DNA from: Phocaeicola coprophilus DSM 18228 = JCM 13818
GTDB lineage: Bacteria; Bacteroidota; Bacteroidia; Bacteroidales; Bacteroidaceae
Assembly: GCF_000157915.1 (NCBI RefSeq)
Contig: NZ_EQ973643.1
Span: 299,771-363,770, forward strand
Length of the DNA: 64,000 nt
Direction of reading: 5' to 3'
This document shows positions 20,999-34,831 of the stretch, piece by piece. Within the stretch, counting starts at the first letter, position 1. Every line of letters begins with the position of its first letter. Position numbers and translations under genes: made by a program. The notes under the pieces were generated by a model, which did not search any database, was not told the origin of the DNA, and saw nothing but the letters and a program-made list of their open reading frames with translations.

Positions 20999-21673
20999 TC
21001 ATTCCACCTGCCGCCCATCGAAGAAACGGATCGTGCGCGAAGTCTGGCGTGCCTGTTCCTCATTGTGCGTCACCATGACGATGGTCCGTCCGTCTTCCCG
21101 GTTCAGCCGGTGGAGGATATCCATCACCTCCGCCCCCATCCGGGAGTCCAGGTTACCCGTCGGCTCGTCGGCCAGCAGGATCTCCGGATTGCCGATGATG
21201 GCACGGGCGATGGCCACACGCTGGCACTGCCCGCCCGAAAGCTGGCCGGGGAAATGGCGCATGCGGTGGCTCAGTCCCACCCGTTCGAGCACTTCCTGCG
21301 CCAGACGGAGGCGTTCCGACGATCCCGTTCCGCGGTAGAGCAGAGGAAGCTGCACATTGTCGATCACATTCAGCGAGCCGATCAGATGGAACGACTGGAA
21401 GACAAACCCCAGTGTCCGGTTGCGGAACTCTGCCAGCCGGCGGTCGCCCATGGCAGGGGTGATCACATTCCCGTTCAGCTCCAGCGTTCCGCTCGTCGGA
21501 GCATCCAGCAGGCCGATGATGTTCAGCAGCGTCGACTTGCCGCAGCCCGAAGGCCCCATCACGCTGAGAAATTCTCCCTTTTCCACTTCCAGGTTCACAT
21601 TCTCCAGAGCCTGGGTTTCAATCTCATTCACCCGGTAGATCTTATTGATCCCGGTCAGTCTGATTATTGCCAT
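20999..21673 (-). CDS. ABC transporter ATPase, MacB/LolD type
   Basis: 224 residues, a complete nucleotide-binding domain: Walker [10 protein letters not shown] (40-48), Q-loop FVFQSF (about 90-95), signature LSGGQ (145-149), Walker B ILLADE (165-170) and switch His in MVTHNEE. The short stand-alone form is typical of LolD/MacB-class exporters, which move substrates from the inner membrane or periplasm outward instead of importing. It is the last gene of the minus-strand series adaptor, permease, permease, ATPase (25,643 to 20,999), presumably transcribed from the sigma-54 promoter at 25,713-25,728. Confidence 0.93.
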
Positions 21674-21708: not shown

Positions 21709-23031
21709 TTATTCATCACGCAGTGCGTCGGCCGGTTCCTCGCGGGCGATACGGCTCACGGGGATCAGCGTGCTGACGAGGGAAACCGCTGCCAGCAGGA
21801 CGTATACGACACTGCTCACCACCAGGAAATGGGCCAGCGGACGGTTCTGCCAATAGAAAGTATCAAGCCCGTCCGAACGGAAAGATTCTTCGGGCAGGTC
21901 TGCCATGCCGGAAGTCACGACATACTGTGCCACTGCCACAAGCCCGATCAGGAAGGCCACCGTAACCAGCAGCCAGGCTTCAACCAGAAAGCGCTTCCGT
22001 ACGTCACGTTTCGTCGCACCCAGACTGCGCATCAGGCCGATCTCCCCACGGCGGGCATCGCAGCGCACCCAGAAAGTGCCGGTCATGCCCAGGAAGATGC
22101 AGAGCAGGGCGAATCCGGCCAGAGCATACTGCACACGCAGTTTGTTCACTGTACCGCTATTTTCCAGTGCGTCCCGGATCTGCCGGTTGAACGAAATCAG
22201 TTCCGGATAGCAGAAATTGCCGATCTGAAGCTGCGGAGCCACTTCCTCGCGGAACCGCTTCTCGAAAGCCCGGGCATCCACGCCGTCCTTCAACCGGAAA
22301 ACGACAGTCCATTGCCAATTGATATAGGAACTCGGCTTAATCTCTGACATCGGAAAAACGACCAGCGGAAAGGGCAGCCTGTAATCGCGGTGCTTGAACT
22401 CACCGAACACGCCGGCCACTTCATACGGCTTGCCGCTCATAAAGAATTTCTTTCCCCGGACATCCGTTGTTCCGTAAAAGCGGCGGGCCAGTGTGGCCGA
22501 AACAAATGCCTTATCGCCGTTCAAACAGTCTTCCGGAATCTCGATGTCCCGTCCGGTAATTGCCTCGCGCACGCCGTAGGTGCGGAACAGGTTGCCACCA
22601 TCGCGGACATAAAACTCATAATACTGAGCCGACAGCTTCCGTGTCTGTGCGTTGTCAAGCGTGTCCGTGGTCAAGGTATTGCCGCTCCAGGACATGCAAT
22701 TGGGGAATGAATAAGGTCTCACGATGGTCAGATCCGCCACTTCCGGACACCGGCGGATCAGACCGGCAATGCGCAGGAGATTGTCCCGCTGGGCGGTGTC
22801 GGTCACCTCTTTCCGGTAACGCACATCGTTGGGCTCATAAGCCTCAAGGGTGAGCACATACCGTCCCTCGGATTCAAACCCGGGAGCAATCAGCCGGTTG
22901 CCCGTCAGCACACAGACGGGATCAATCACCGTCCACAAAAAGAAAGTCACTGCGATCAGCTCCAGCAGAATCCATCCGTTCTGTCTCCGCTGATTCCATA
23001 ATTGGTGTAGAATATTCTGAAACATAGTCAT
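21709..23031 (-). CDS. FtsX/MacB-type ABC transporter permease
   Basis: 440 residues. One N-terminal membrane helix (about 18-40), a large periplasmic domain (about 45-290) of the MacB_PCD type, then three membrane helices: about 302-322 (VQYALAGFALLCIFLGMTGT), about 350-370 and about 400-425. A 'RRGEIGLMRSLGATKRDVRKRF' motif lies between the first two, as is characteristic of FtsX-like permeases. It is paired with the second permease 6 bp upstream, implying a heterodimer. Substrate unknown. Confidence 0.88.
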   Translation of the reverse strand: MTMFQNILHQLWNQRRQNGWILLELIAVTFFLWTVIDPVCVLTGNRLIAPGFESEGRYVLTLEAYEPNDVRYRKEVTDTAQRDNLLRIAGLIRRCPEVADLTIVRPYSFPNCMSWSGNTLTTDTLDNAQTRKLSAQYYEFYVRDGGNLFRTYGVREAITGRDIEIPEDCLNGDKAFVSATLARRFYGTTDVRGKKFFMSGKPYEVAGVFGEFKHRDYRLPFPLVVFPMSEIKPSSYINWQWTVVFRLKDGVDARAFEKRFREEVAPQLQIGNFCYPELISFNRQIRDALENSGTVNKLRVQYALAGFALLCIFLGMTGTFWVRCDARRGEIGLMRSLGATKRDVRKRFLVEAWLLVTVAFLIGLVAVAQYVVTSGMADLPEESFRSDGLDTFYWQNRPLAHFLVVSSVVYVLLAAVSLVSTLIPVSRIAREEPADALRDE

Positions 23032-23037
23032 TGGTTT

Positions 23038-24348
23038 TTATCGCTGTGCATGAAGTGAATTGACAATGGAGTGACGCAACGCCCACAGGGCAGGTATCAG
23101 CGCCGAAAGCACATTCAGGAAAAGACAGACCAGAAAGGCCGTTGCGAAAACATAGGGATTGAAAAGCACCTCCGGTCCCAGGAAGAGAGACGCATCGGAG
23201 TATGCTCCCCTCATCCAGTTGGCTGCTCCCAGACTCAGGATCCATCCCCGGGCGGACAGAAGGATGGCCCACGACACCAGCATTCCGGCAACTCCGCCGA
23301 GGAAGGTCAGCAACAGGTTCTCCCACAGTACCTGGTTCACCAGCATCCGGCTGGTGGCTCCATACGCCCGCCGGACTCCCAGTTCGCCCAGGCGCCGGTC
23401 CATCCGTGAAGAAATCAGTCCGCCCAGATTCAGAGCCGGAATGAAAAGCAAGGCCAGCAGAATGTAAGCCAGCTGCCGGACGGTCTGCTTCACATCAGGC
23501 GCCCCCATGCAGTCCGTACGCAGCGAACTTTTCCAATAGTCGTCCGGCTGTTCCATCAGATCGCTGACATAGGGATGATCCTGCGCGTTATAACGCCGGA
23601 AAGCATCCTGCACTTCCGCCCGCAACTGCTTCTTTTCCGCCCGGGTCGGTGCCGTCAGATAGATCCAGAAAGCGCCGAGCAGCCTCCCGTCGGGGTCTTT
23701 GTCATCGAACCCCGGATAACGCGTCATGGGCATCCACAGGTCGGCGACCGTTGTGGGGGTTGCGTACGACACATCCTTCACCACTCCGCAGACCCGTATC
23801 CTCTCCGCATTCACGCTCAGATACTTCCCTGTCGCATCGGTCGTGGCAAACAGTTTCCGGGCCAGACTCTCGGAGATGACAGCCACGGGAAGACGGGAAT
23901 CCACATCAGCCTGTACAAAAGGCTTTCCCGAGAGAAAGCGGAAGGAAAACATGCTCCAGAACCCACAGTCCACGTAGCCAGGCAGGATTTCCTGGCTTCC
24001 CTGGTTGCCGGGCAGGTCTACCCGCATCTTGCTCCATCCGCCGCCTTGAAACACGGCAATCTGATCCAGATGGGGAAGATCCTTCAGCAGCGTCTTCGCC
24101 ACGAAATAAGAGACTCCGGTATTGCAGGATGTTCCATTCGAACCCTTATCCTGCGATTTCATCGTTTTGATCACCAGCATGCGGTCCCGGTTGTATTCCG
24201 GATAAACCGGTCCGGCCTTCACATAATAAATGACAAACAGAACCATCACCAGAGCAATGGAAAGTCCCGTTCCCACAATGTAAACCGACGAGAACAGCCG
24301 GTTCTGTTTCAGCATGATCCATGCTTGTCTGAAATAAACCCGTATCAT
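23038..24348 (-). CDS. FtsX/MacB-type ABC transporter permease
   Basis: 436 residues with the same architecture as its neighbour: N-terminal helix (about 18-42), extended periplasmic domain, and three C-terminal helices with 'RMDRRLGELGVRRAYGATSRML' between the first two, where the FtsX family usually has R-x-x-E-I-G-x-x-R-A-x-G-A. Sequence divergence from the partner suggests an old duplication and a heterodimeric transporter. It is 38 bp downstream of the adaptor gene. Confidence 0.88.
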   Translation of the reverse strand: MIRVYFRQAWIMLKQNRLFSSVYIVGTGLSIALVMVLFVIYYVKAGPVYPEYNRDRMLVIKTMKSQDKGSNGTSCNTGVSYFVAKTLLKDLPHLDQIAVFQGGGWSKMRVDLPGNQGSQEILPGYVDCGFWSMFSFRFLSGKPFVQADVDSRLPVAVISESLARKLFATTDATGKYLSVNAERIRVCGVVKDVSYATPTTVADLWMPMTRYPGFDDKDPDGRLLGAFWIYLTAPTRAEKKQLRAEVQDAFRRYNAQDHPYVSDLMEQPDDYWKSSLRTDCMGAPDVKQTVRQLAYILLALLFIPALNLGGLISSRMDRRLGELGVRRAYGATSRMLVNQVLWENLLLTFLGGVAGMLVSWAILLSARGWILSLGAANWMRGAYSDASLFLGPEVLFNPYVFATAFLVCLFLNVLSALIPALWALRHSIVNSLHAQR

Positions 24349-24386: not shown

Positions 24387-25643
24387 TCATTCCTTTTCTT
24401 TCAGTTTGATCTGTGTCCGGCTCTGATACATACTCATATCGCTCACCACCACGCAGTCACCTTCCTTCAGGCCGTCCAGCACTTCCACCTGGTCGTAGCT
24501 GCATGCTCCCAGACGGACCTTGCGCTTCACCAGCCGGCCACTGCCTTCTTTCACGAAAAGCTCGTACTCGCCGGCACCCACATAAAACGACCCGTTGCTG
24601 ATGCGAAGGGCCTCTTCCCTCACCGCATTGATGACATAAATATCAACTTTCAGTCCGGAACGCAGACGGCGGTTGCTGCTGTCATCCAGCTGCACCGTAA
24701 AGGACATGATTCCGTCACGGCTCAGCGGTGTCACGCTGCTCACCATCCCTTCCAGCCTTTCATGCCCGACGAGAACCATCGCCCTGGCACCGGCAGCAAT
24801 CCGGTCACTGTATGATTCGGCTGCCTCTCCATCTACCCGGAAATGACTCAGATCGGATACCACCGCCACCTGGCTCCCGGGCGCTACCTGCGATCCTACC
24901 TGCGTATTGATGGAAGTCAGGATGGCCTTACGCGGCGAACGCAGCTGAGCATCTTCCAGCGTACGCCGGGTTTCCGACAGACTCTTGCGGAAAATATCCA
25001 GTTCAAGCTGCTTCACTTTCAGATCAGCCTCCTTCACTTTCTGCTCGTTGGCATATTGCTGACGCAGCTGTTCCAGTTCCAGACATCCGGTATTATAAGC
25101 AAGTTCCGCCTGACGTACCCTGTCTGTAGTCCCCGATCCGAGGCTGTCCAGATAGCGTTCGTTGCGCAAATCAGCTTCCATGCGTCCCACCTTCATGGCC
25201 TGTACCTTCACCTTCATGGCCAGATCGCCAAGATAAGTTTCATTATTCATCCGCAACTGATCCAGCTGAAGCTGTTTCATCCGTTCCTCATCCAGCTGCT
25301 TGTGGTACTCGGTTTCCGTACTCTGAAGATCAAGCTTCAGCAACGGAGTCCCTGCCTCCACGCTGTCTCCGCTCCGGCGGTACACTTCCACAATACGTGC
25401 GCTGACCGGCGAGGTAATGATCTCCTCAACTGCCGGAACTATTTTTCCGGAAGCACTGACACTCACTTCCAGCGTACCGCGGTCCACGACACTGAAAAGC
25501 AGGTCCTTCTCATTCACGCGGCTCTGCATCAGTGAAGGAATCCAGGTGATGCCGCCAATCAGTAACAGTCCGGCCATTCCATAACCCAGCCACCGCTTCC
25601 GGCGTTCACGCTGCAATGTTTTCTTTGGTATTTCTCTATCCAT
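24387..25643 (-). CDS. HlyD/MacA-type periplasmic adaptor
   Basis: 418 residues. A basic N terminus (KRERRKRW-type) precedes one membrane helix (about 18-36). Then come the first half of the lipoyl domain (SGKIVPAVEEIITSPV), a long coiled-coil hairpin (about 105-245), the second lipoyl half (LRSPRKAILTSINTQVGSQV), and beta-barrel and membrane-proximal domains. Such adaptors connect an inner-membrane transporter to a TolC-type channel. It is the first gene of the four-gene export operon and divergent from the tolC-like gene, with two sigma-54 promoters between. Confidence 0.92.
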   Translation of the reverse strand: MDREIPKKTLQRERRKRWLGYGMAGLLLIGGITWIPSLMQSRVNEKDLLFSVVDRGTLEVSVSASGKIVPAVEEIITSPVSARIVEVYRRSGDSVEAGTPLLKLDLQSTETEYHKQLDEERMKQLQLDQLRMNNETYLGDLAMKVKVQAMKVGRMEADLRNERYLDSLGSGTTDRVRQAELAYNTGCLELEQLRQQYANEQKVKEADLKVKQLELDIFRKSLSETRRTLEDAQLRSPRKAILTSINTQVGSQVAPGSQVAVVSDLSHFRVDGEAAESYSDRIAAGARAMVLVGHERLEGMVSSVTPLSRDGIMSFTVQLDDSSNRRLRSGLKVDIYVINAVREEALRISNGSFYVGAGEYELFVKEGSGRLVKRKVRLGACSYDQVEVLDGLKEGDCVVVSDMSMYQSRTQIKLKEKE

Positions 25644-25712
25644 GATTATTTGAATTTTCCTTGTCCGTTTTCATACATATTCAAATCCGTTTTCAACGGT
25701 ACCCTTCCTGAA

Positions 25713-25728
25713 ACAATTTGCGTGCCAG
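25713..25728 (-). promoter_or_regulatory. Sigma-54 promoter for the efflux operon
   Basis: On the minus strand the sequence reads CTGGCACGCAAATTGT, close to the sigma-54 (RpoN) consensus TGGCACG-N4-TTGC, with the -24 GG and a -12 GT in place of GC. The expected start lies about 60 bp before the adaptor ATG. It is a mirror image of the promoter at 25,870-25,885. Confidence 0.7.
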
Positions 25729-25771
25729 AATCCTAACTGCCTGATTATCTGCAATACTTTATCTCCCCGAG

Positions 25772-25829
25772 TGTCCGAAAACGGACAGTCTTCCGCTACA
25801 GAATCAGAAAGTGTCCATTTCCGGACACT
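25772..25829. promoter_or_regulatory. Paired TGTCC-N6-GGACA dyads (shared upstream activator sites)
   Basis: Two dyads with the same half-sites and spacing: TGTCC (25772-25776)/GGACA (25783-25787) and TGTCC (25812-25816)/GGACA (25823-25827). They are 40 bp apart, nearly four helical turns, and centred at 25,799.5, the midpoint between the two sigma-54 promoters. The position (about 70-130 bp upstream of each start) is typical for enhancer sites of NtrC-type activators. The best candidate binder is the regulator encoded at 32,120. Confidence 0.7.
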
Positions 25830-25869
25830 CACTGGAAGAGCTATATCTGATAATCAACGACTTGCGATT

Positions 25870-25885
25870 CTGGCACTGGATTTGT
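25870..25885 (+). promoter_or_regulatory. Sigma-54 promoter for the TolC-type gene
   Basis: CTGGCACTGGATTTGT matches TGGCAC-N5-TTG with -24 GG (25872-25873) and -12 GT (25884-25885), the same deviation from GC as the divergent promoter. The expected start is near 25,897, which would leave a leader of about 210 nt. Confidence 0.7.
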
Positions 25886-25910
25886 GTATTTCTTTCCGAA
25901 CGGACAAAAC

Positions 25911-26100
25911 AGAACAGCCACCTTGCAAATACAGAACAAAAAACGGAAAAATCCGCGATACAAAACAGAAAAAAGACCGAAAAGCCCGAGAAAAGACCGG
26001 AAAGTCCGAAAACAAACCGGAAGACCCGAAAAAGCAAGCAAGCCGGAAGCCCGAGAAAACGGGCAAACCGGAAACCAGAACCATAAAAATAAAACAACAA
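25911..26100 (+). other. T-depleted, purine-rich leader of the TolC-type gene
   Basis: By my count only 8 of 190 bases are T. The stretch is A-rich with repeated short units such as GACCGAAAAG, CCCGAGAAAAG and ACCGGAAAG. The resulting RNA would be nearly U-free and largely unstructured. The tolC frame is open through it back to 25,884, coding a Lys/Arg-rich stretch unlike any export signal, so I treat it as untranslated leader. Confidence 0.5.
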
Positions 26101-26105
26101 GCCAT

Positions 26106-27608
26106 ATGAACCGAAAAACAATGAAACAGATCCTTCTAGCATGGGGGATGAGCCTTCTGCCCCTGCTTCCCCAGGCAGGCACGGCACAAACCGCCAGACG
26201 CAGCATCACACTCGATGAAGCCATCCTTCTGGCACGGGTGCAAAGCGTAGATGCAGCAGTGGCCCTCAACAAACTGAAAACAGCTTACTGGGAGTACCGC
26301 ACCTTCCAGGCCAACCTGCTGCCGGAAATCAGCTTCACGGCCACGCTTCCGAGCTATAACAAGAAATACAACTCCTACCAGCAGGACAACGGAGCCTATA
26401 CCTACGTGCGCAATGACTATATGAATCTGTCCGGATCGATCTCCATCGACCAGAGCATCTGGCTGACCGGAGGTACGCTGTCGCTCACGACCTCACTGGA
26501 CTACCTGAGCCAGCTCAGCGGAAACAAATCCCGCCAGTTCATGTCCGTTCCGGTGGCGCTGACCCTCAACCAGCCCATCTTCAGCGTCAACAATGTGAAG
26601 TGGAACCGCCGCATCGAGCCGGTACGCTATGAGGAAGCCAAAGCGGCCTTCCTGAGTGCCACGGAAAACGTTACGCTGAACACCATCAACCATTTCTTCA
26701 ATCTGCTGCTGGCACGCGAACGGGTAAACATCTCCAGCCAGAACCTGGAAAATGCCCGCAAGCTGTACGAAGTGGCCAAGGTCAAACGCCGCATGGGAAA
26801 GATCAGCGAAAACGACCTGCTCCAGCTGCAGCTGAACATGCTGAATGCCGAATCGGCCCTGACCGACAACGAAAGTTCCCTGAAGAATGCCATGTTCACC
26901 CTCCGCTCGTTCCTGGCCCTGGAAGGACAGGAGGAACTGGACCCCGTCCTGCCTGACTCCATTCCCGGAGGACTGCTCAACTATCAGGACGTGCTGGAAA
27001 AAGCCCTGGCCAACAACTCCTTCGCCCGCAACATCCGTCGGCGCCAGCTGGAAGCCGACTACGAAGTGGCCAAAGCCAGGGGAAATCTCCGGGAAATCAC
27101 CCTGTTCGCCCAGGTGGGATATACGGGCACCGACCACAGCTTCCGTTCCTCCTACCAGCACCTGAAAGACAATCAGGTGGTGGAAGTCGGAATCAGAATC
27201 CCCCTGCTCGACTGGGGAAAACGGCGCGGACAGGTCCGTGTGGCCGAAAGCAACCGTCAGGTGACTGAAAGCAAGCTGCGCCAGGAGACCATGGACTTCA
27301 ACCAGAACCTCTTCATCCTGACCGAACAGTTCAACAACCAGAAACGCCAGCTGAAGATTGCCGGAGAAGCCGACCGGATTGCCCGCAAACGCTATCACAC
27401 CAATGTCGAAACCTTCATGGTGGGACAGATCAGCACCCTCGACCTGAACGACGCCCAGGTCAGCAAGGACGAAGCCCGCCAGAAACACATCAACGAGCTG
27501 TTCTATTACTGGTACTACTACTATCAGCTGCGCAGCCTCACGCTCTGGGATTTCGACCGGAACACCGGGATCGATGCAGACTTCGAGGAGATCATCCGCA
27601 GAGAATAG
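26106..27608 (+). CDS. TolC-type outer-membrane efflux protein
   Basis: 500 residues. A signal peptide (about 1-27, ending PQAGTAQ) is followed by 'ITLDEAILLAR', the classic start of OEP/TolC proteins, and two repeats of long coiled-coil helices with short outer-membrane strands. 'VGIRIPLLDWGKRRGQVRVAE' marks the second repeat. It forms the outer-membrane exit duct for the divergently encoded ABC exporter and adaptor. ATG 26106 was chosen because the frame upstream lacks a signal sequence. Expression probably depends on sigma-54 (25,870-25,885). Confidence 0.92.
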   Translation: MNRKTMKQILLAWGMSLLPLLPQAGTAQTARRSITLDEAILLARVQSVDAAVALNKLKTAYWEYRTFQANLLPEISFTATLPSYNKKYNSYQQDNGAYTYVRNDYMNLSGSISIDQSIWLTGGTLSLTTSLDYLSQLSGNKSRQFMSVPVALTLNQPIFSVNNVKWNRRIEPVRYEEAKAAFLSATENVTLNTINHFFNLLLARERVNISSQNLENARKLYEVAKVKRRMGKISENDLLQLQLNMLNAESALTDNESSLKNAMFTLRSFLALEGQEELDPVLPDSIPGGLLNYQDVLEKALANNSFARNIRRRQLEADYEVAKARGNLREITLFAQVGYTGTDHSFRSSYQHLKDNQVVEVGIRIPLLDWGKRRGQVRVAESNRQVTESKLRQETMDFNQNLFILTEQFNNQKRQLKIAGEADRIARKRYHTNVETFMVGQISTLDLNDAQVSKDEARQKHINELFYYWYYYYQLRSLTLWDFDRNTGIDADFEEIIRRE

Positions 27609-27625: not shown

Positions 27626-30184
27626 CTACAGACGGGCCTTTTCGCTCTGACCGGCTCCGGTACCCTTATATTTGCTCTTAGTGGCATTGAACTTATACGA
27701 AAGCTGGATCCCCACACGCTGCCAGTCGCGGTAGATACGGTTCCCGTTGTAGGAATCGATCCCATAGACATTGAAATGATAATACCCGGTACGGAGTATA
27801 TCATCCGCAGTCAGCGACAACGTCAGCGCATCGTCCTTCAGGAACGACTTGCTGACACGGGCATTCAGCCGGCCCTCCAGACGGTTCACCATGAATCCCA
27901 TCCGTGCGGCGGTCTGCAGACTGCCCTGTACGTTCAGAAACCAGCCCTGCGGCAACGTAAAGCTGTTGTCCCATCCGAAATTAAACAGCGGCTGCCGGCG
28001 CCAGACCTCAATCCCCAGGTTACGGCCGTCGGGAGCAGCATATACCCCGCTAATACTGAACTGCGGCTGCCAGACACCGATCCGCGGAGCAGCGCTCAGA
28101 TTGATGATGCAGCTTGAACCCGGTGCCAGATTGGCCGAAGTGAACAGCAGGATTCCCGGATGGGTTTCCTCATTGTAAGGCATGGTAATGTTCGTGAGCA
28201 AATTTCTGGTACGCCCATACTGCACATAGGCAAACAGCCATTTGTAAGCCAGGTTCAGCGACAGGATGCTGGCCTGCGACGGTTCCAGTCCCGGATTCCC
28301 CGTCGTATACGAATACTGGGTCCGGTAGCTGACGGCATTGGTCAGCAAGGCATACGAAGGATTGGTCCGCATCGTCTTCCAGGCAAGTGCCAGACTGAGA
28401 TCCCGGTCCGACCAGCTGACAGACGCCGTGGGAATCAGCTCATCATACACCGGACTCTGTTCCTCCACCCGGACCCCCTGATCCCAATAATCCGTGGCAC
28501 GGTGCTCATAGCGCAGCCCCGCATTCGCCCGCCATTTTCCCCAGGAAGCCGAATACCCGGCAAAGACCGCAAAGGCACGCTGGCGGATGAAATTGTCCGC
28601 ATCGGCCGAGAAGCCGCTTTGCGTGAAAAGATCCTTCCGCTCCGTCAGCGTTCCTTCCGACCCGAACGACAGCTGCCCTTTTCCCAGCTTCACGCCTGCC
28701 TGAAGCCGGGCCGCATAAAGCCGGCTTTCCGAGTCGGACACACTGCTGATGTCCGCCTCGCTTCCGTCCTCCGCATACTGGCTGCTCTTCATGCGGTTGT
28801 CCAGATAATCCGCATTCAGATCCAGCGTCCACCGGCCGGCCTCGCCCACATAATACGCATTGACCGCATGATTGATCCCGTCGCGGGGACAGGAACGCAT
28901 CACGAAGTCCGCCCGTTCCACCTCAGTCCCGTTGCAGGAAGTGACCGTTTCCCCCCACGACCGCTGGAGGGCAGTGCCCAGTGTTCCCCCCGGCGTATAC
29001 TTCACTCCGAACGAATGATGCTCGTTCACCTCACAGTTGAAGCCCGCCTCGGCCGAGAACCTCTGCGACCGCGACGTCTGCACATCACCGGCCACCGTCT
29101 CCCACACATCCTTTCCCTCCGTGCGGATCACGGCCTCCGTCTCTCCGTATGAATTCTTTTCGCTGACATAGCCCTTCACAAAAAAGTCCAGCCCTCCGGT
29201 GCGGAAATTCAGGGCCACCTGCTGGTCGCCGTTCGCCCACCGTCCCTGGTTGTAGCCCAGGTTCACGCTTCCGCTCCAGCCTTCCCCCCGCTGGCGGAGC
29301 GTACGGATGCGGATGACCGCAGGCACGTCGGCAGCATACTCCGGGCCGGGCGCCGTGATCACCTCCGCCGACAGGATCTCCGAAGCCCGGAGCCGGTCGA
29401 GTTCCCCCATGTCGCGCACCTTCCGGCTGTTGATGTAGATTTCCGGCGTACCGCTTCCCAGCACCGAAAGACTTCCGTTGCGGCTGGTGACAAAAGGCAG
29501 GTGAGCCAGCATCTCCCCCGCCGTACCCATCCGTGCCAGCGACGTACCGGCCACGTTCGCCTTCACCCCGCCGGCCGAAGGCTCTATCAGTCTGCGGCGG
29601 CCCGTCACGGTCACCTCCTCCAGCATCTGTGCGTCGGGAGCCAGCCGGATCCGGTTGCCGGCAGCCGCAGACTGCACCACGGTCGCATACCCCACCGACG
29701 ACACCTTCAGCAGATACGCCTTCCCCTCTTCCGCCGTCATCAGGAACGAGCCGTCCTCACGGCTGACGCATCCGTTCACAAACACCGAATCGGGCGTAAG
29801 CAGTAGCACGTTGCTGTACGGGAGCGGACGGTCCGCCTCGTCAGTCACCCTGCCCCGCACGGCAACCGGCAGCCTGTGCACACTGTCCGGCAGGACGATG
29901 AGATACTCCTCCCCCCTGCGCACCGAGGTGAGCGGTTTACCCTCAAGCAGCTTCTTCACCGCTTGTTCCACCGCCATATCGCGGATGGAAGCCGTCACCC
30001 GGTAAGGCTGTACATCGCTGTAAGTAAACAGAATGCTGCATCCCGAAGCCTGTTCCAGCTTCTTCAGGGCAGCCGACAGAGGCACCTCCTTCAGCTCTGC
30101 GCTGACCGGGCGTCCCGTCTGAGCCGGCAGGGTCAGGACCGCCCCCGTCCATGCCAGCAGCAAAAAGATCATTTTCGTTTTCAT
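27626..30184 (-). CDS. TonB-dependent receptor with STN domain
   Basis: 852 residues. Signal peptide (1-~22), then a secretin/TonB short N-terminal (STN) domain (about 30-85, 'VPLSAALKKLEQASGCSILFTYSDV') used for signalling to FecR. A carboxypeptidase-like beta sandwich (about 108-185) ends near 'MLEEVTVTGRR', a TonB-box-like motif, followed by plug and a barrel of the 'outer membrane beta-barrel family' type, not SusC type. With the FecR and ECF genes directly upstream on the same strand it makes a cell-surface signalling system. No SusD partner lies next to it. Substrate unknown. Confidence 0.88.
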   Translation of the reverse strand: MKTKMIFLLLAWTGAVLTLPAQTGRPVSAELKEVPLSAALKKLEQASGCSILFTYSDVQPYRVTASIRDMAVEQAVKKLLEGKPLTSVRRGEEYLIVLPDSVHRLPVAVRGRVTDEADRPLPYSNVLLLTPDSVFVNGCVSREDGSFLMTAEEGKAYLLKVSSVGYATVVQSAAAGNRIRLAPDAQMLEEVTVTGRRRLIEPSAGGVKANVAGTSLARMGTAGEMLAHLPFVTSRNGSLSVLGSGTPEIYINSRKVRDMGELDRLRASEILSAEVITAPGPEYAADVPAVIRIRTLRQRGEGWSGSVNLGYNQGRWANGDQQVALNFRTGGLDFFVKGYVSEKNSYGETEAVIRTEGKDVWETVAGDVQTSRSQRFSAEAGFNCEVNEHHSFGVKYTPGGTLGTALQRSWGETVTSCNGTEVERADFVMRSCPRDGINHAVNAYYVGEAGRWTLDLNADYLDNRMKSSQYAEDGSEADISSVSDSESRLYAARLQAGVKLGKGQLSFGSEGTLTERKDLFTQSGFSADADNFIRQRAFAVFAGYSASWGKWRANAGLRYEHRATDYWDQGVRVEEQSPVYDELIPTASVSWSDRDLSLALAWKTMRTNPSYALLTNAVSYRTQYSYTTGNPGLEPSQASILSLNLAYKWLFAYVQYGRTRNLLTNITMPYNEETHPGILLFTSANLAPGSSCIINLSAAPRIGVWQPQFSISGVYAAPDGRNLGIEVWRRQPLFNFGWDNSFTLPQGWFLNVQGSLQTAARMGFMVNRLEGRLNARVSKSFLKDDALTLSLTADDILRTGYYHFNVYGIDSYNGNRIYRDWQRVGIQLSYKFNATKSKYKGTGAGQSEKARL

Positions 30185-30273
30185 GGTTCAAAATTCTGAC
30201 TGATTCTGCTTCTGTTACGGAGAGCATGCCCGATCGGGTACCGGAAAAGCACATTTTTTTCAGAAAAAAAATT

Positions 30274-31335
30274 TCAGATGCCCACCACCACCCGGCCGTC
30301 CTCGATCCGGGCCCTGACCTTGCGCAGGCAGTTCAGCAGCTCCAGCACCTGCTCCAGCGAATCCTTCCGGTCCGCCCGGAAATGCAGGCGTTCCTGCATC
30401 ACCTCCCTGTCGGTGAACACGATATCCACGTTATACCACCGCCCCAGCTCGCGCATGATCTCCACCAGCGGAGCATCATCAAAGGCAAACCGGCCGTCGG
30501 TCCACGCACGGCAGTCCTCCGCATCGTCCACGGTCTTCCTGCCCAGGCTGCAGTCCGTTCCTTCCCCCGGTCTGAGCAGCAGTTCCCCCCGGTGCCTGTC
30601 GCTCACCTTCACGCTTCCCCGGAGCAGGGTCACCCGCGTATCCTCCGGCGAATAGGCCCTCACGTTGAACGAAGTGCCCAGCACCTGCGTCTGCAGGGCC
30701 GCCGTCTCCACCACAAAGGGATGCAGGCTGTCGGGCGCCACCTCAAAGTAGGCCTCCCCCTGCAGCGTCACCTCGCGCCGTTCCCTTCCGCCGAAGCTCC
30801 CGGGATAGCTGAGCGAGCTTTCCGCATTGAGCCACACCCGCGACCCGTCCGGCAGCACCAGCCGGCGGCTCATGCCCCGGGGAATGCGGACCGTACGGAT
30901 ACCGCCGCACACTTCCTCCTTCACCTCCCCTCCGGCAGGTCCGGCCCTGAACACCGTATATTCCCTGCGTCCCGTCAGGGGCAGCATCATCAGCAGGGCC
31001 AGCGAAGCCGCCACTGCCAGCGCCGTCCACCAGGCCGCCCTGCGCATCCGCTTCCTGCCGCGGGCAGCACCGGCAGCATCCGGATGGCGGCGGCAGAAAG
31101 CCTCCCACTGTCCGTCCACATTGGGAGCTGCGGCATGACGGCGTGCCAGCGCCTCGCGGCAGTCAAGCAGGTCGCGGCAGGCTGCCACACACTCCCTGTC
31201 GGCCAGCAGTTCCTCCAGTTCTTCCTTGGTGAAGCGCCCGGGATGCTCCAGGGCATCCAGCGTACGCCCCATCCTGTCTTCGTTCTCTTTCATATCCATC
31301 GGTCGATCGTTTTCTGTATTCCAATTACGTTTCAT
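30274..31335 (-). CDS. FecR-type anti-sigma factor
   Basis: 353 residues. An N-terminal cytoplasmic region (about 1-98), one membrane helix (about 104-121, WWTALAVAASLALLMMLPL), then a periplasmic FecR domain: 'IPRGMSRRLVLPDGSRVWLN', then 'GEAYFEVAPDSLHPFVVET' and 'LGTSFNVRAY'. The C-terminal part (about 280-353) is a DUF4974-like domain expected to touch the receptor STN domain. It overlaps the ECF sigma gene by 11 bp, so the two are translated together. Confidence 0.92.
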   Translation of the reverse strand: MKRNWNTENDRPMDMKENEDRMGRTLDALEHPGRFTKEELEELLADRECVAACRDLLDCREALARRHAAAPNVDGQWEAFCRRHPDAAGAARGRKRMRRAAWWTALAVAASLALLMMLPLTGRREYTVFRAGPAGGEVKEEVCGGIRTVRIPRGMSRRLVLPDGSRVWLNAESSLSYPGSFGGRERREVTLQGEAYFEVAPDSLHPFVVETAALQTQVLGTSFNVRAYSPEDTRVTLLRGSVKVSDRHRGELLLRPGEGTDCSLGRKTVDDAEDCRAWTDGRFAFDDAPLVEIMRELGRWYNVDIVFTDREVMQERLHFRADRKDSLEQVLELLNCLRKVRARIEDGRVVVGI

Positions 31336-31855
31336 CCGTCTTTCCGGGTACCTTCCCCCGCCGTTTTTCTCCGCATCCCAGTTCTTCCCGCAGCATCCGC
31401 AGGGCCTTCACGATGTGTTTCTTCACCCCGTCGGGCGTGATGCCCCTCTCCTCGGCCACCTCGCGGTATTTCTTCCCGTCGTAGTAACACTGCTTCACAA
31501 TGCTCCGGGTGGGATCGGTCATCCGCTCCAGACAGCGCTCCATGCGCCTCACCCGCTCCTCGCGCTCCCCGGGAGGGATGGACGGATCCTCCGAAGTGAG
31601 GGTACGGAGGAAGGTGGCGTACTGCTGTTCCACCTGTCTGTGGCGCAGATAGTCTATGCAACGGTTACGGGTACGAGTGTAAAGGCAAGCTACGGCCGTT
31701 GCTTCCTGCAATTGTTCCCGATCCTTCCAGGCCTGTTCGAAAACATCGTTGACAATGTCACGGCAAGCCTCTTCGTCAGCAACAAAGCGGAAAGCATAAT
31801 AGTACAGACGGGCATAATTCCCCCGATAAAGCTGTTCAAAATGGTCTGTTTTCAC
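31325..31855 (-). CDS. ECF-type RNA polymerase sigma factor
   Basis: 176 residues with sigma region 2 ('FEQLYRGNYARLYYYAFRFV', 'ACRDIVNDVFEQAWKDRE') and region 4 helix-turn-helix ('KKYREVAEERGITPDGVKKHI'). It is the Bacteroidetes FecI-like type, held inactive by the FecR-type protein whose gene overlaps its end. It likely directs transcription of the TonB receptor operon and possibly itself. Its 264-bp upstream region is shared with the divergent NtrC-type regulator. Confidence 0.93.
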   Translation of the reverse strand: MKTDHFEQLYRGNYARLYYYAFRFVADEEACRDIVNDVFEQAWKDREQLQEATAVACLYTRTRNRCIDYLRHRQVEQQYATFLRTLTSEDPSIPPGEREERVRRMERCLERMTDPTRSIVKQCYYDGKKYREVAEERGITPDGVKKHIVKALRMLREELGCGEKRRGKVPGKTDET

Positions 31856-32082: not shown

Positions 32083-32090
32083 TATCTTTG
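32083..32090 (+). promoter_or_regulatory. -7 box TATCTTTG for the two-component genes
   Basis: Perfect TAnnTTTG match 29 bp before ATG 32120, so a housekeeping-type promoter for the regulator and kinase. The -33 element is unclear. AATTTGCCA is repeated at 32047-32055 and 32066-32074 just upstream. Confidence 0.6.
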
Positions 32091-32119: not shown

Positions 32120-33487
32120 ATGATTCTTATCATTGACGACGACAGTGCCATCCGGTCCTCCCTCAGCTTTATGCTGAAACGGGCCAAATACGAGGTAGAA
32201 ACAGCTTCCGGCCCCAAAGAGGCTATCGAAATTATCCGCAGGACTGCTCCGCAGCTGATCCTGATGGACATGAACTTCACGCTTTCCACCAGCGGAGAAG
32301 AAGGACTGACCCTGCTCCGGCAGACCCGTATTTTCCGGCCGGATGTTCCGGTTATCCTGATGACTGCATGGGGAAGTATCCGTCTGGCCGTACAAGGCAT
32401 GCAGGCAGGAGCTTTTGATTTCATTACCAAACCCTGGAACAATGCCGCACTCATGCAACGCATTGAAACAGCTCTGGAACTGACTGCCCCGCAAAAGGAA
32501 ACGCCCGGATCTGCAGACCAGAAGCACGCCGGATTCGACCGCCACCGGATCATCGGCAAGAGCAGAGCCCTGAACGAAGTGCTCGATACACTCTGCCGGA
32601 TTGCTCCAACCAACGCACCGGTCCTGATCACAGGAGAAAGCGGTACGGGTAAGGAACTGATTGCCGAAGCCCTGCACGTCAACAGCCGGAGGGCCTCGGG
32701 CCCCTTCGTCAAGGTCAATCTGGGAGGAATCTCACAAAGCCTGTTTGAAAGTGAAATGTTCGGTCACCGGAAAGGAGCCTTTACGGATGCTGTTACAGAC
32801 CGCATCGGCCGGTTTGAAATGGCCGACCGGGGAACGATCTTCCTGGATGAGATCGGAGAGCTGGATCTCAGTTGCCAGGTAAAACTGTTGCGCGTTCTGC
32901 AGGACCAGACCTTCGAAGTGCTGGGGGACAGCCGTCCGAGAAAAGTGGATATCCGCGTCGTATGTGCCACCAATGCAGATCTTCCGCAAATGGTCCGTGA
33001 ACATACTTTCCGCGAAGACCTGTTCTACCGCATCAACCTGATCACCGTTCATCTGCCTGCCCTGCGCGAACGGCGGGAGGATATTCCGTTGCTGGCACGC
33101 CATTTTGCCGACCGCCAGTGTGAACAAAACCAGTTACCACCCGTAGATTTTACAAGTGATGCACTTGATTTCCTGTCGTCACTTCCCTATCCCGGCAATA
33201 TCCGTGAGCTCAAGAATCTGGTGGAGCGTACCCTGCTGGTCAGCGGAAAGACCAGACTGACAGAAGCAGACTTCCGGCTATGTTATCAACAGCCTGTTCA
33301 TAACTCTGCCGCAAAGCTACAAGTGCCTCAAGGCATGACACTGGAAGAGATCGAAAAACAAACCATTCTGCAGGCTATGAAAGAATGTGGCAACAACCTA
33401 TCACAGGTAGCTGCTTTACTGGGTATCAGCCGGGGAGCTCTGTACCGCCGGCTGGAAAAATACAACCTGCCTGTCGGCAATTCCTGA
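32120..33487 (+). CDS. NtrC-type sigma-54 response regulator
   Basis: 455 residues in three parts. Receiver (1-~118) with acidic pocket Asp6-8, phospho-acceptor Asp50 (LILMDMNF) and Lys104 (FITKPW). AAA+ domain (about 143-375) with Walker A GESGTGKE (172-179), the sigma-54 contact loop GAFTDA (219-224, Asp where many have Gly, as I recall from other Bacteroidetes members), Walker B FLDEIG (241-246) and an arginine finger region ('FREDLFYRINL'). Fis-type helix-turn-helix at the end ('NLSQVAALLGISRGALYRRL'). It needs RpoN; the only good sigma-54 promoters I found in the window are the divergent pair at the efflux genes. ATG 32120 was chosen because it starts the receiver exactly. Confidence 0.94.
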   Translation: MILIIDDDSAIRSSLSFMLKRAKYEVETASGPKEAIEIIRRTAPQLILMDMNFTLSTSGEEGLTLLRQTRIFRPDVPVILMTAWGSIRLAVQGMQAGAFDFITKPWNNAALMQRIETALELTAPQKETPGSADQKHAGFDRHRIIGKSRALNEVLDTLCRIAPTNAPVLITGESGTGKELIAEALHVNSRRASGPFVKVNLGGISQSLFESEMFGHRKGAFTDAVTDRIGRFEMADRGTIFLDEIGELDLSCQVKLLRVLQDQTFEVLGDSRPRKVDIRVVCATNADLPQMVREHTFREDLFYRINLITVHLPALRERREDIPLLARHFADRQCEQNQLPPVDFTSDALDFLSSLPYPGNIRELKNLVERTLLVSGKTRLTEADFRLCYQQPVHNSAAKLQVPQGMTLEEIEKQTILQAMKECGNNLSQVAALLGISRGALYRRLEKYNLPVGNS

Positions 33488-33505: not shown

Positions 33506-34831
33506 ATGAAAATAAGAACTCAGTTCCTCATTCTCGCCTTCCTGCTGCTGACAGCAGGCTGCCTGATTTCAGCTCTTATCCTGAAGGATCGGGGTTTGTT
33601 GTTTTATCTGACAGAAGGAGTAATCCTGGTCACACTCCTCTTCCTTATTTATTTTTATCAGAAGGTAGTGAAACCGATCCGAAGTATCGGAAACGGAATG
33701 GAACTGCTGCGCGAACAGGACTTCAGCAGCCGGCTTTCGCCTGTAGGACAAAAGGATGCCGACCGCATCGTACAAGTGTTCAACCGCATGATGGAACAAC
33801 TGAAAGACGAACGTCTCCGCCTGCGTGAACAGAATCATTTCCTGGATCTGCTGATCAGCGCTTCTCCCATGGGAGTGATCATCCTGGATTTCGATGATCA
33901 CATTTCCATGCTCAATCAGGCCGCTGTCCGGTTTATGGGTTATACCGCTCCGGAAGAACTGACCGGAAAAAAGATTGAAGAACTGAATTCTCCTCTGGCT
34001 GAGGAACTGAACCGCATTGCCCGTAACAAGACAGAAACCATACGTCTGAGCGATTCCATGATCTACCGCTGCTCCCGACTCTCTTTTGTCGACCGGGGAT
34101 TTGCCCACCCGTTCATCCTCATCGAAAGCCTGACCTCCGAAGTTGTAAAAGCTGAAAAGAAAGCCTACGAGAAAGTAATCCGCATGATTGCACACGAAGT
34201 AAACAATACCGTAGCAGGCATTACATCTACCCTGGAGTCCGTGAGCGATGCCCTGCAGGATACGGAAGACTCTGATGACTTGCGCGAAGTGATGCAGGTA
34301 TGCGTGGAACGGTGTTACAGCATGAGCCGGTTTATCACCAACTTTGCAGATGTGGTCAAGATCCCTGATGCCCAGCTCCAGACTGTCTATCTGAACGAAC
34401 GGGTAACAGCCTGCAAACGCTTCATGGAGAACATTTGCCGGAACAAGGATATCCAGCTTCATATCAGCCTGTGTGAAGAAAATCCACAAGTGCAGATGGA
34501 CACGACTCTCTTTGAACAGGTAATCGTAAATATTCTCAAGAATGCAGCCGAAAGTATCGAGGTTCACGGAAATATCTATATACAGACAACCTCCAGTCCG
34601 GTGACACTGGAAATAGCCGATACGGGAGCAGGTATCAGCCGCGAAGTAGAAGCCCGGTTATTCAGCCCGTTCTTCTCCACCAAGCCCAACGGACAAGGGA
34701 TCGGCCTCATCTTTATCCGTGACGTACTGATCAAACACGGATGTACTTTCTCTCTGCGTACATGGCCTGACGGTCTGACACGTTTCCTCATCCGCTTTCC
34801 TCACAACGACCGCACGATTCAGCCCGATTGA
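33506..34831 (+). CDS. Membrane histidine kinase with PAS domain
   Basis: 441 residues. Two membrane helices (about 6-26 and 33-51) are separated by only ~6 residues, so there is no real periplasmic sensor; stimulus is probably read in or at the membrane, or by the cytoplasmic parts. Then HAMP (about 52-104), a PAS domain (about 109-205), a dimerisation/phosphoacceptor helix with His230 (MIAHEVNNTVAG), and an ATPase domain with N-box Asn346 (NILKNAAES), G1 'DTGAGIS' and G2 'GQGIGL'. It lies 18 bp after the response regulator, its obvious partner. The 22-bp repeats begin within its last codons. Confidence 0.93.
   Translation: MKIRTQFLILAFLLLTAGCLISALILKDRGLLFYLTEGVILVTLLFLIYFYQKVVKPIRSIGNGMELLREQDFSSRLSPVGQKDADRIVQVFNRMMEQLKDERLRLREQNHFLDLLISASPMGVIILDFDDHISMLNQAAVRFMGYTAPEELTGKKIEELNSPLAEELNRIARNKTETIRLSDSMIYRCSRLSFVDRGFAHPFILIESLTSEVVKAEKKAYEKVIRMIAHEVNNTVAGITSTLESVSDALQDTEDSDDLREVMQVCVERCYSMSRFITNFADVVKIPDAQLQTVYLNERVTACKRFMENICRNKDIQLHISLCEENPQVQMDTTLFEQVIVNILKNAAESIEVHGNIYIQTTSSPVTLEIADTGAGISREVEARLFSPFFSTKPNGQGIGLIFIRDVLIKHGCTFSLRTWPDGLTRFLIRFPHNDRTIQPD

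Follow-up and report, generated by a model that had tools for sequence, protein, structure and literature searches.

Two probable sigma-54 promoter modules placed back to back between the adaptor and TolC genes of a predicted tripartite pump

We considered it likely that the gap between an adaptor gene and a TolC-type gene is occupied by two full sigma-54 promoter modules placed back to back, through which one regulator would co-activate both halves of a tripartite pump, with the activator dyads perhaps shared. The locus lies in a 64-kb stretch of DNA, here called the window, from a genome of 4.04 Mb, here called the window genome. On the minus strand, the genes were those of a HlyD/MacA-like periplasmic adaptor (24387-25643; Pfam HlyD_3, HlyD_D23), two FtsX/MacB_PCD permeases (23038-24348 and 21709-23031; Pfam) and an ABC ATPase (20999-21673; Pfam ABC_tran). 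On the plus strand, a TolC-type outer membrane efflux protein was encoded at 26106-27608 (Pfam OEP, two stretches). All MacAB-TolC parts were thus present by Pfam. In MacB proper, the ATPase is fused to the permease. The set of adaptor, MacB_PCD/FtsX permease, ABC ATPase and TolC resembled the MacA-MacB-TolC pump as given in the available part of PMC5985334, and differed from it in that the ATPase and permease were separate genes and there were two permeases. The proposed activator, an NtrC-type response-regulator bEBP, was encoded at 32120-33487 (+), and its proposed partner, a PAS-HAMP histidine kinase (Pfam), at 33506-34831 (+).

From left to right, the gap carried a sigma-54 box on the minus strand, an IHF-like site, two dyads, a second IHF-like site and a sigma-54 box on the plus strand. 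The pair of activator dyads was therefore placed between the two boxes, with an IHF-like match between dyad and box on both sides. The box of the HlyD-FtsX-FtsX-ABC genes (25713-25727, -) read TGGCACG-CAAA-TTGT and scored highest in the window with a box matrix derived from relatives (rank 1 of 127,970 positions). The box of the TolC gene (25871-25885, +) read TGGCACT-GGAT-TTGT. Both fitted the sigma-54 rule of GG at -24, GC or GT at -12 and 10 bp between. The putative activator dyads were TGTCCGAAAACGGACA on the HlyD side (25772-25787, centre 25779.5) and TGTCCATTTCCGGACA on the TolC side (25812-25827, centre 25819.5). The candidate IHF-like site of the adaptor module, AATCAGGCAGTTA (25734-25746, -), was an exact WATCARNNNNTTR, and that of the TolC module, AATCAACGACTTG (25852-25864, +), was an exact WATCAANNNNTTR; each lay 19 bp upstream of the TGG of its -24 element. 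The distance from dyad start to box was 59-60 bp in the two modules. It was 59 bp on the TolC side, 1 bp outside the usual 60/61 bp of the relatives. The preliminary description had claimed two RpoN-type boxes with GG-N10-GT, a pair of TGTCC-N6-GGACA dyads 40 bp apart around 25799.5, and mirror symmetry of the promoters about that midpoint. These claims were borne out. The boxes were confirmed at 25727-25713 (-) and 25871-25885 (+), both dyads were exact with their common centre at 25799.5, and the boxes, like the whole gap, were symmetric about this point to about 1 bp. The IHF-like sites on both sides were an addition to the elements described before.

The predicted +1 of the adaptor unit would lie near 25701 (-), with a leader of 58 nt. 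That of the TolC unit would lie near 25897 (+), with a leader of about 209 nt, the TolC start being set at 26106 and an open GTG frame at 25884 not being chosen. The TolC leader (25886-26105) consisted of 49% A and 7% T and held about nine repeats of the CCGAAAA/CCGGAA type. It was in frame without a stop from a GTG upstream of the expected start.

The module was conserved in relatives. The search for adaptor homologs gave 31 positive genomes out of 61 in the genus and 19 out of 295 in the order, with the window genome counted in both. There were 48 adaptor matches in relatives (30 genus, 18 order). Of these, 47 were read, the omitted one being G051, a fragment located at the end of a contig. 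Loss of the dyads in relatives that keep the operon, which would have refuted the preliminary description, was not the pattern seen: the module preceded the adaptor gene at 40 of the 47 loci with at most four mismatches. The distance from dyad to box in these 40 was 61 bp in 24, 60 bp in 14, 58 bp in 1 and 62 bp in 1. Seven loci failed the four-mismatch cut. Among them, L042 was at a contig end, L064 and L065 had TolC directly upstream on the same strand, and L068 and L069 were homologs with 29-31% identity. The remaining two, L060 and L061, belong to more distant relatives and show a tandem-dyad form of the module: a pair of dyads spaced by about 21 bp and located about 70 and 91 bp from the box. 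Twelve loci came from named genomes, at least two of them repeating records already read. The adaptor module was present with at most three mismatches in nine (L070-L074, L078-L081). In L075 and L076, the dyad was perfect and the best-scoring box was four mismatches off, and L077 had too little upstream DNA.

The TolC gene had its own module at 16 of 30 relative loci, all 16 with a distance of 60 or 61 bp. At 12 of the 14 loci lacking one, TolC was located less than 100 bp behind the preceding pump-gene match, the exceptions being L085 and L107. Taking both classes together, the spacing was 60/61 bp in 54 of 56 relative modules. The boxes of these modules had GG in 55 of 56, and the -12 element was GC in 37, GT in 17 and GA in 2. 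The consensus of the module consisted of TGTCCGATATCGGACAC, about 20 bp, TTGATAATCAG-N4-TTA, and TTTTGGCACGG-N-TTTTGCT. Its middle element fitted WATCARxxxxTTR, which is quoted as the IHF consensus in the accessible part of PMC3897727. With the window included, 28 of 58 modules had an exact IHF-like WATCARNNNNTTR, which in 26 of them lay exactly 19 bp before the TGG. Exact matches on the reverse strand were found in 7 of 58, and the mean in mononucleotide shuffles was 0.17. By class, the exact site occurred in 27 of 41 adaptor modules, and among the 17 TolC modules only that of the window had it; for relatives only, the values were 26 of 40 and 0 of 16. As the modules stem from related genomes, none of these conservation counts are independent.

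Statistics were calculated for the elements alone and in combination. With at most one mismatch allowed, the dyad pattern alone was present 3 times in the window against an expectation of 1.85, and so is no rarity there. The 4.04 Mb genome contained the exact palindrome TGTCC-N6-GGACA four times, twice in the gap and twice inside ORFs. When the dyad was combined with the box (dyad-N38-52-TGGCA), 60 matches were obtained in the 61 genus genomes compared to 9 for the reversed-pattern control. In the window genome, the numbers were 2 and 0. This composite was present in 27 of 31 adaptor-bearing genus genomes and in 3 of 30 adaptor-less ones. A sequence model, R1, was built from 73 related promoter modules with the window excluded. 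It gave full-length matches at 25787-25713 (-) for the adaptor-side module (E 4.9e-12) and at 25812-25884 (+) for the TolC-side module (E 1.2e-8), and no further full-length match within the 64-kb window. The two modules were ranked first and second in the 4.04 Mb genome. The TolC box by itself was undistinctive, with rank 19 of the 127,970 positions by the box matrix, and the case for it depends on the composite. Module presence at E 1e-9 agreed with adaptor presence in 61 of 61 genomes, an agreement that is partly by construction, for adaptor and TolC alike, because R1 was trained on modules upstream of these genes. Two genomes without the adaptor, G004 (2.0e-9) and G049 (1.9e-9), were just outside this cut.

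As predicted from the sequence, activation would proceed as follows. The kinase (33506-34831) would probably phosphorylate the NtrC-type regulator (32120-33487), which would occupy the TGTCC-N6-GGACA dyad of each module, some 60 bp upstream from its -24 box. A protein of the IHF/HU type would introduce a bend at the WATCAR-N4-TTR site, and the sigma-54 polymerase complex would be opened by the activator. Transcription would thereby start together in both directions, leftward into the adaptor-permease-ATPase genes and rightward into the TolC gene. In the least certain step, the partner dyad might act as the second site of each promoter, and the two dyads might form one shared enhancer.

This last step was considered in light of a second, weaker site that was common in relatives. 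The best candidate for such a site upstream was placed exactly 19 bp behind the dyad in 26 of 40 relative adaptor modules, and 17 of these 26 exceeded the 95% shuffle quantile; at any distance, 25 of 40 exceeded it. For the best second site of the TolC modules, the distance was 19 bp in 11 of 16 and 20 bp in 3 of 16. On both sides of the window gap, the site at 19 bp was absent (scores -31 and -43). The partner dyad, 40 bp away, scored 18 and 24 and stood 21 bp further out, about two helical turns. These data suggested a mutual enhancer, where the primary dyad of the partner takes over from the missing secondary site and one activator assembly fires both pump halves. We hold this reading tentatively, at slightly below an even chance. 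If it is true, the whole tripartite pump would respond as one, and its regulon would be one that in relatives includes DUF2807/DUF3836-type genes as well. The other serious reading, which we place somewhat below an even chance, is that the modules are insulated. Each promoter would use its own dyad only, the 40-bp neighbourhood would be a by-product of rearrangement, and co-expression would come from the common activator. This agrees with the perfect own dyad that each promoter keeps at 59-60 bp, and with the adaptor and TolC modules of relatives, which are kilobases apart. Moreover, in 15 of the 40 relative adaptor modules nothing upstream scored above the 95% shuffle quantile as a second site, and such a site may therefore be dispensable. 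Insulation is harder to reconcile with the absence on both sides of a second site that is usual at 19 bp in relatives of either class, and with a perfect dyad standing 21 bp beyond the missing place. The face-to-face arrangement allows one to ask, as an experiment of nature, whether enhancers that come to lie side by side are shared.

The regulator was examined as the candidate activator of the two modules. It had the NtrC-type bEBP domains by Pfam, namely a receiver, an AAA+ sigma-54 interaction domain and a Fis-type HTH. Its loop was GAFTDA in place of GAFTGA, a point against the proposed activation, and GAFTDA was also found at 28 of 30 relative TolC loci, the other two giving no motif. In the accessible part of PMC4641369, GAFTDA is among the loop variants that would keep activity and is also given for DVU2106. 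The window genome encoded one RpoN and also DNABII proteins, the latter counted at family level with IHF and HU together. In the 61 genus genomes, regulator and adaptor were both present in 29 and both absent in 29, with the regulator only in 1 and the adaptor only in 2 (Fisher 6e-14, a p value that is indicative since the genomes are related). Adaptor and TolC were both present in 30, with the adaptor only in 1, TolC only in 0 and neither in 30. The NtrC-type regulator directly followed TolC on the same strand at 29 of 30 relative TolC loci, and the kinase was next at 28 of 30.

In the window genome, the bEBP gene was 4.5 kb from the TolC end, beyond an inserted ECF/FecR/outer-membrane gene set. 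This set consisted of outer-membrane beta-barrel, FecR and ECF sigma genes (27626-31855, -), and it was absent in the 29 relative loci where the TolC-regulator junction was read. The Bacteroides vegetative -7 motif is TAnnTTTG. The regulator gene was preceded by its own box of this type, TATCTTTG, at 32083. Based on the inserted gene set and this box, the window genome may have uncoupled the positive loop that is expected where, as in relatives, TolC is followed by the regulator.

The protein that binds the dyads could instead be a different activator encoded in this genome, or a transcription factor of an unrelated kind, which we regard as improbable. Seven further strong bEBP matches were present in the genome, and the regulator gene was not adjacent to the gap. 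Against this, the orthologs of the 32120 regulator stood directly downstream of TolC in nearly all relative loci and co-occurred with both the pump and the module, and a paralogous bEBP gene of the same genome stood beside a different dyad, TGTGCG-N4-CGCACA. The latter was observed in a parallel system, L013 (G000:C69:222426-222506), the third best R1 match in the genome, where the paralogous gene was divergent from another TolC-like gene. L013 carried TGTGCGTATCCGCACA and, 21 bp before, TGTGCGTATTCGCACC, two TGTGCG-type dyads of which one was exact and one had its last base changed; a sigma-54-like box was also present. The difference in dyad letters between paralogous regulators fits the local regulator as the reader of TGTCCG. 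Very improbable, finally, is that the dyads are transcript hairpins (terminators) or chance and the pump is under ordinary vegetative promoters: TGTCCG-AAAA-CGGACA is able to form a short hairpin and GT at -12 is rarer than GC, but the fixed 60/61-bp spacing in relatives, the 17 GT boxes among the 56, and an exact TAnnTTTG box that precedes the regulator gene and was not found in the adaptor-TolC gap argue against it.

The proposal that a single activator acts through the mirror arrangement was supported in part. Sigma-54 use, a single activator and co-control of the pump were well supported by the conservation at fixed spacing, the bEBP co-occurrence and the RpoN gene. The mirror arrangement as the basis of co-control is not required, because TolC has its own separate module at 16 of 30 relative loci and each promoter here keeps its own dyad, at a distance close to the ancestral one. 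Sharing of the dyad pair by the promoters is plausible, the only evidence, which is indirect, being the missing secondary sites and the position of the partner dyad.

The origin of the facing arrangement was investigated by gene order. Adaptor and TolC were on the same strand on 20 of 20 genus contigs carrying both, 4.8 to 16.2 kb apart by matches, and among the genomes read they were divergent only in the window genome. A second genome with facing modules was not found among the 60 composite matches in 61 genomes. None was found elsewhere at E ≤1e-9 (14 places, 344 genomes), a cut that also misses the TolC module of the window, nor in another genome among the R1 matches listed. Judged from these sequences, the back-to-back order is the product of a rearrangement, because the two genes share a strand in relatives and TolC often has its own module there. 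The coordinated sigma-54 control of the pump looks ancestral, based on the module conservation, the regulator co-occurrence and the same-strand order in relatives, with only the facing arrangement peculiar to the window genome. The TolC half may be an old TolC module that was moved here, a copy of the adaptor module in inverted orientation, or a combination of the two. In the spacer, the halves had a likeness of 61% (shuffle p 0.0015), which 5.6% of adaptor-TolC module pairs from other loci also reached. A classifier that was correct on 37 of 40 adaptor and 14 of 15 TolC relatives gave +17.4 for the adaptor half (adaptor-like) and -6.9 for the TolC half (mildly TolC-like), which is in favour of separate old modules. 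An inverted copy is favoured by the exact IHF-like site of the TolC half, an adaptor-module feature, and by its best single matches, which were adaptor modules. A simple in-place inversion was rejected, since the locus flanks did not match the relatives' stretches read; the flanking genes showed no synteny to those stretches.

Activator sites are shared in the spacers of E. coli hycA/hypA and zraP/zraSR. According to part of PMC8743547, RpoN holoenzyme binds these spacers, which lie between divergent units. The arrangement is comparable to the one predicted here; the genes are unrelated to those of the pump. The closest system was orp1/orp2 of Desulfovibrio vulgaris. Parts of PMC3897727 and PMC4641369 describe divergent operons that are both sigma-54 dependent, with one bEBP and palindromic sites, IHF-type sites (WATCARxxxxTTR) between promoters and dyads, an activator, DVU2106, with the loop GAFTDA, and a sigma-70 promoter for the regulator gene. 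In contrast to our locus, the genes and the kind of organism are different, the orp activator sites are at -131 and -88 and the sides are not mirror images, and DVU2106 is a single-component regulator, whereas here it is a response regulator with a kinase. In Bacteroidia, sigma-54 promoters are predicted to be enriched before ABC-type antimicrobial-peptide permeases (FtsX-type, COG0577), as given in part of PMC12316311, and the window pump has FtsX-type permeases of that kind. In the part available, that source names neither an activator nor a site for one, and describes no IHF-like site and no divergent arrangement; 'divergent' and 'TolC' have 0 occurrences in its main text. The literature search returned no recognised description of the module or the regulator in Bacteroidales and little on sigma-54 control in gut Bacteroidales. 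As far as the searches show, the module anatomy, the likely activator and the facing arrangement are new. A module of dyad, IHF-like site and sigma-54 box at fixed spacing, together with its likely cognate two-component activator, is now defined and directly testable, and comparable switches occur singly in many related gut bacteria.

The remaining composite matches were pointing to a regulon wider than the pump, including, by sequence, DUF3836-like and DUF2807-like genes. In 20 other matches, the first downstream gene was DUF2807-like in 5, DUF3836-like in 3, an FtsX permease in 4 and an ABC ATPase in 4, with Pfam run on one each of the DUF2807-like, DUF3836-like and FtsX permease types and the rest assigned by likeness. 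The candidate regulon would consist of MacB/FtsX pumps and further proteins. Two composite matches, L117 and L119, were likely due to chance and were excluded from the alignment. L122 reached into the beginning of a long frame that precedes permease genes, and L126 ended with its contig. The module was observed before DUF3836-like or DUF2807-like (head GIN domain) genes of genus genomes at L112, L113, L114, L115, L120, L127, L130 and L131, with Pfam on L112 and L113.
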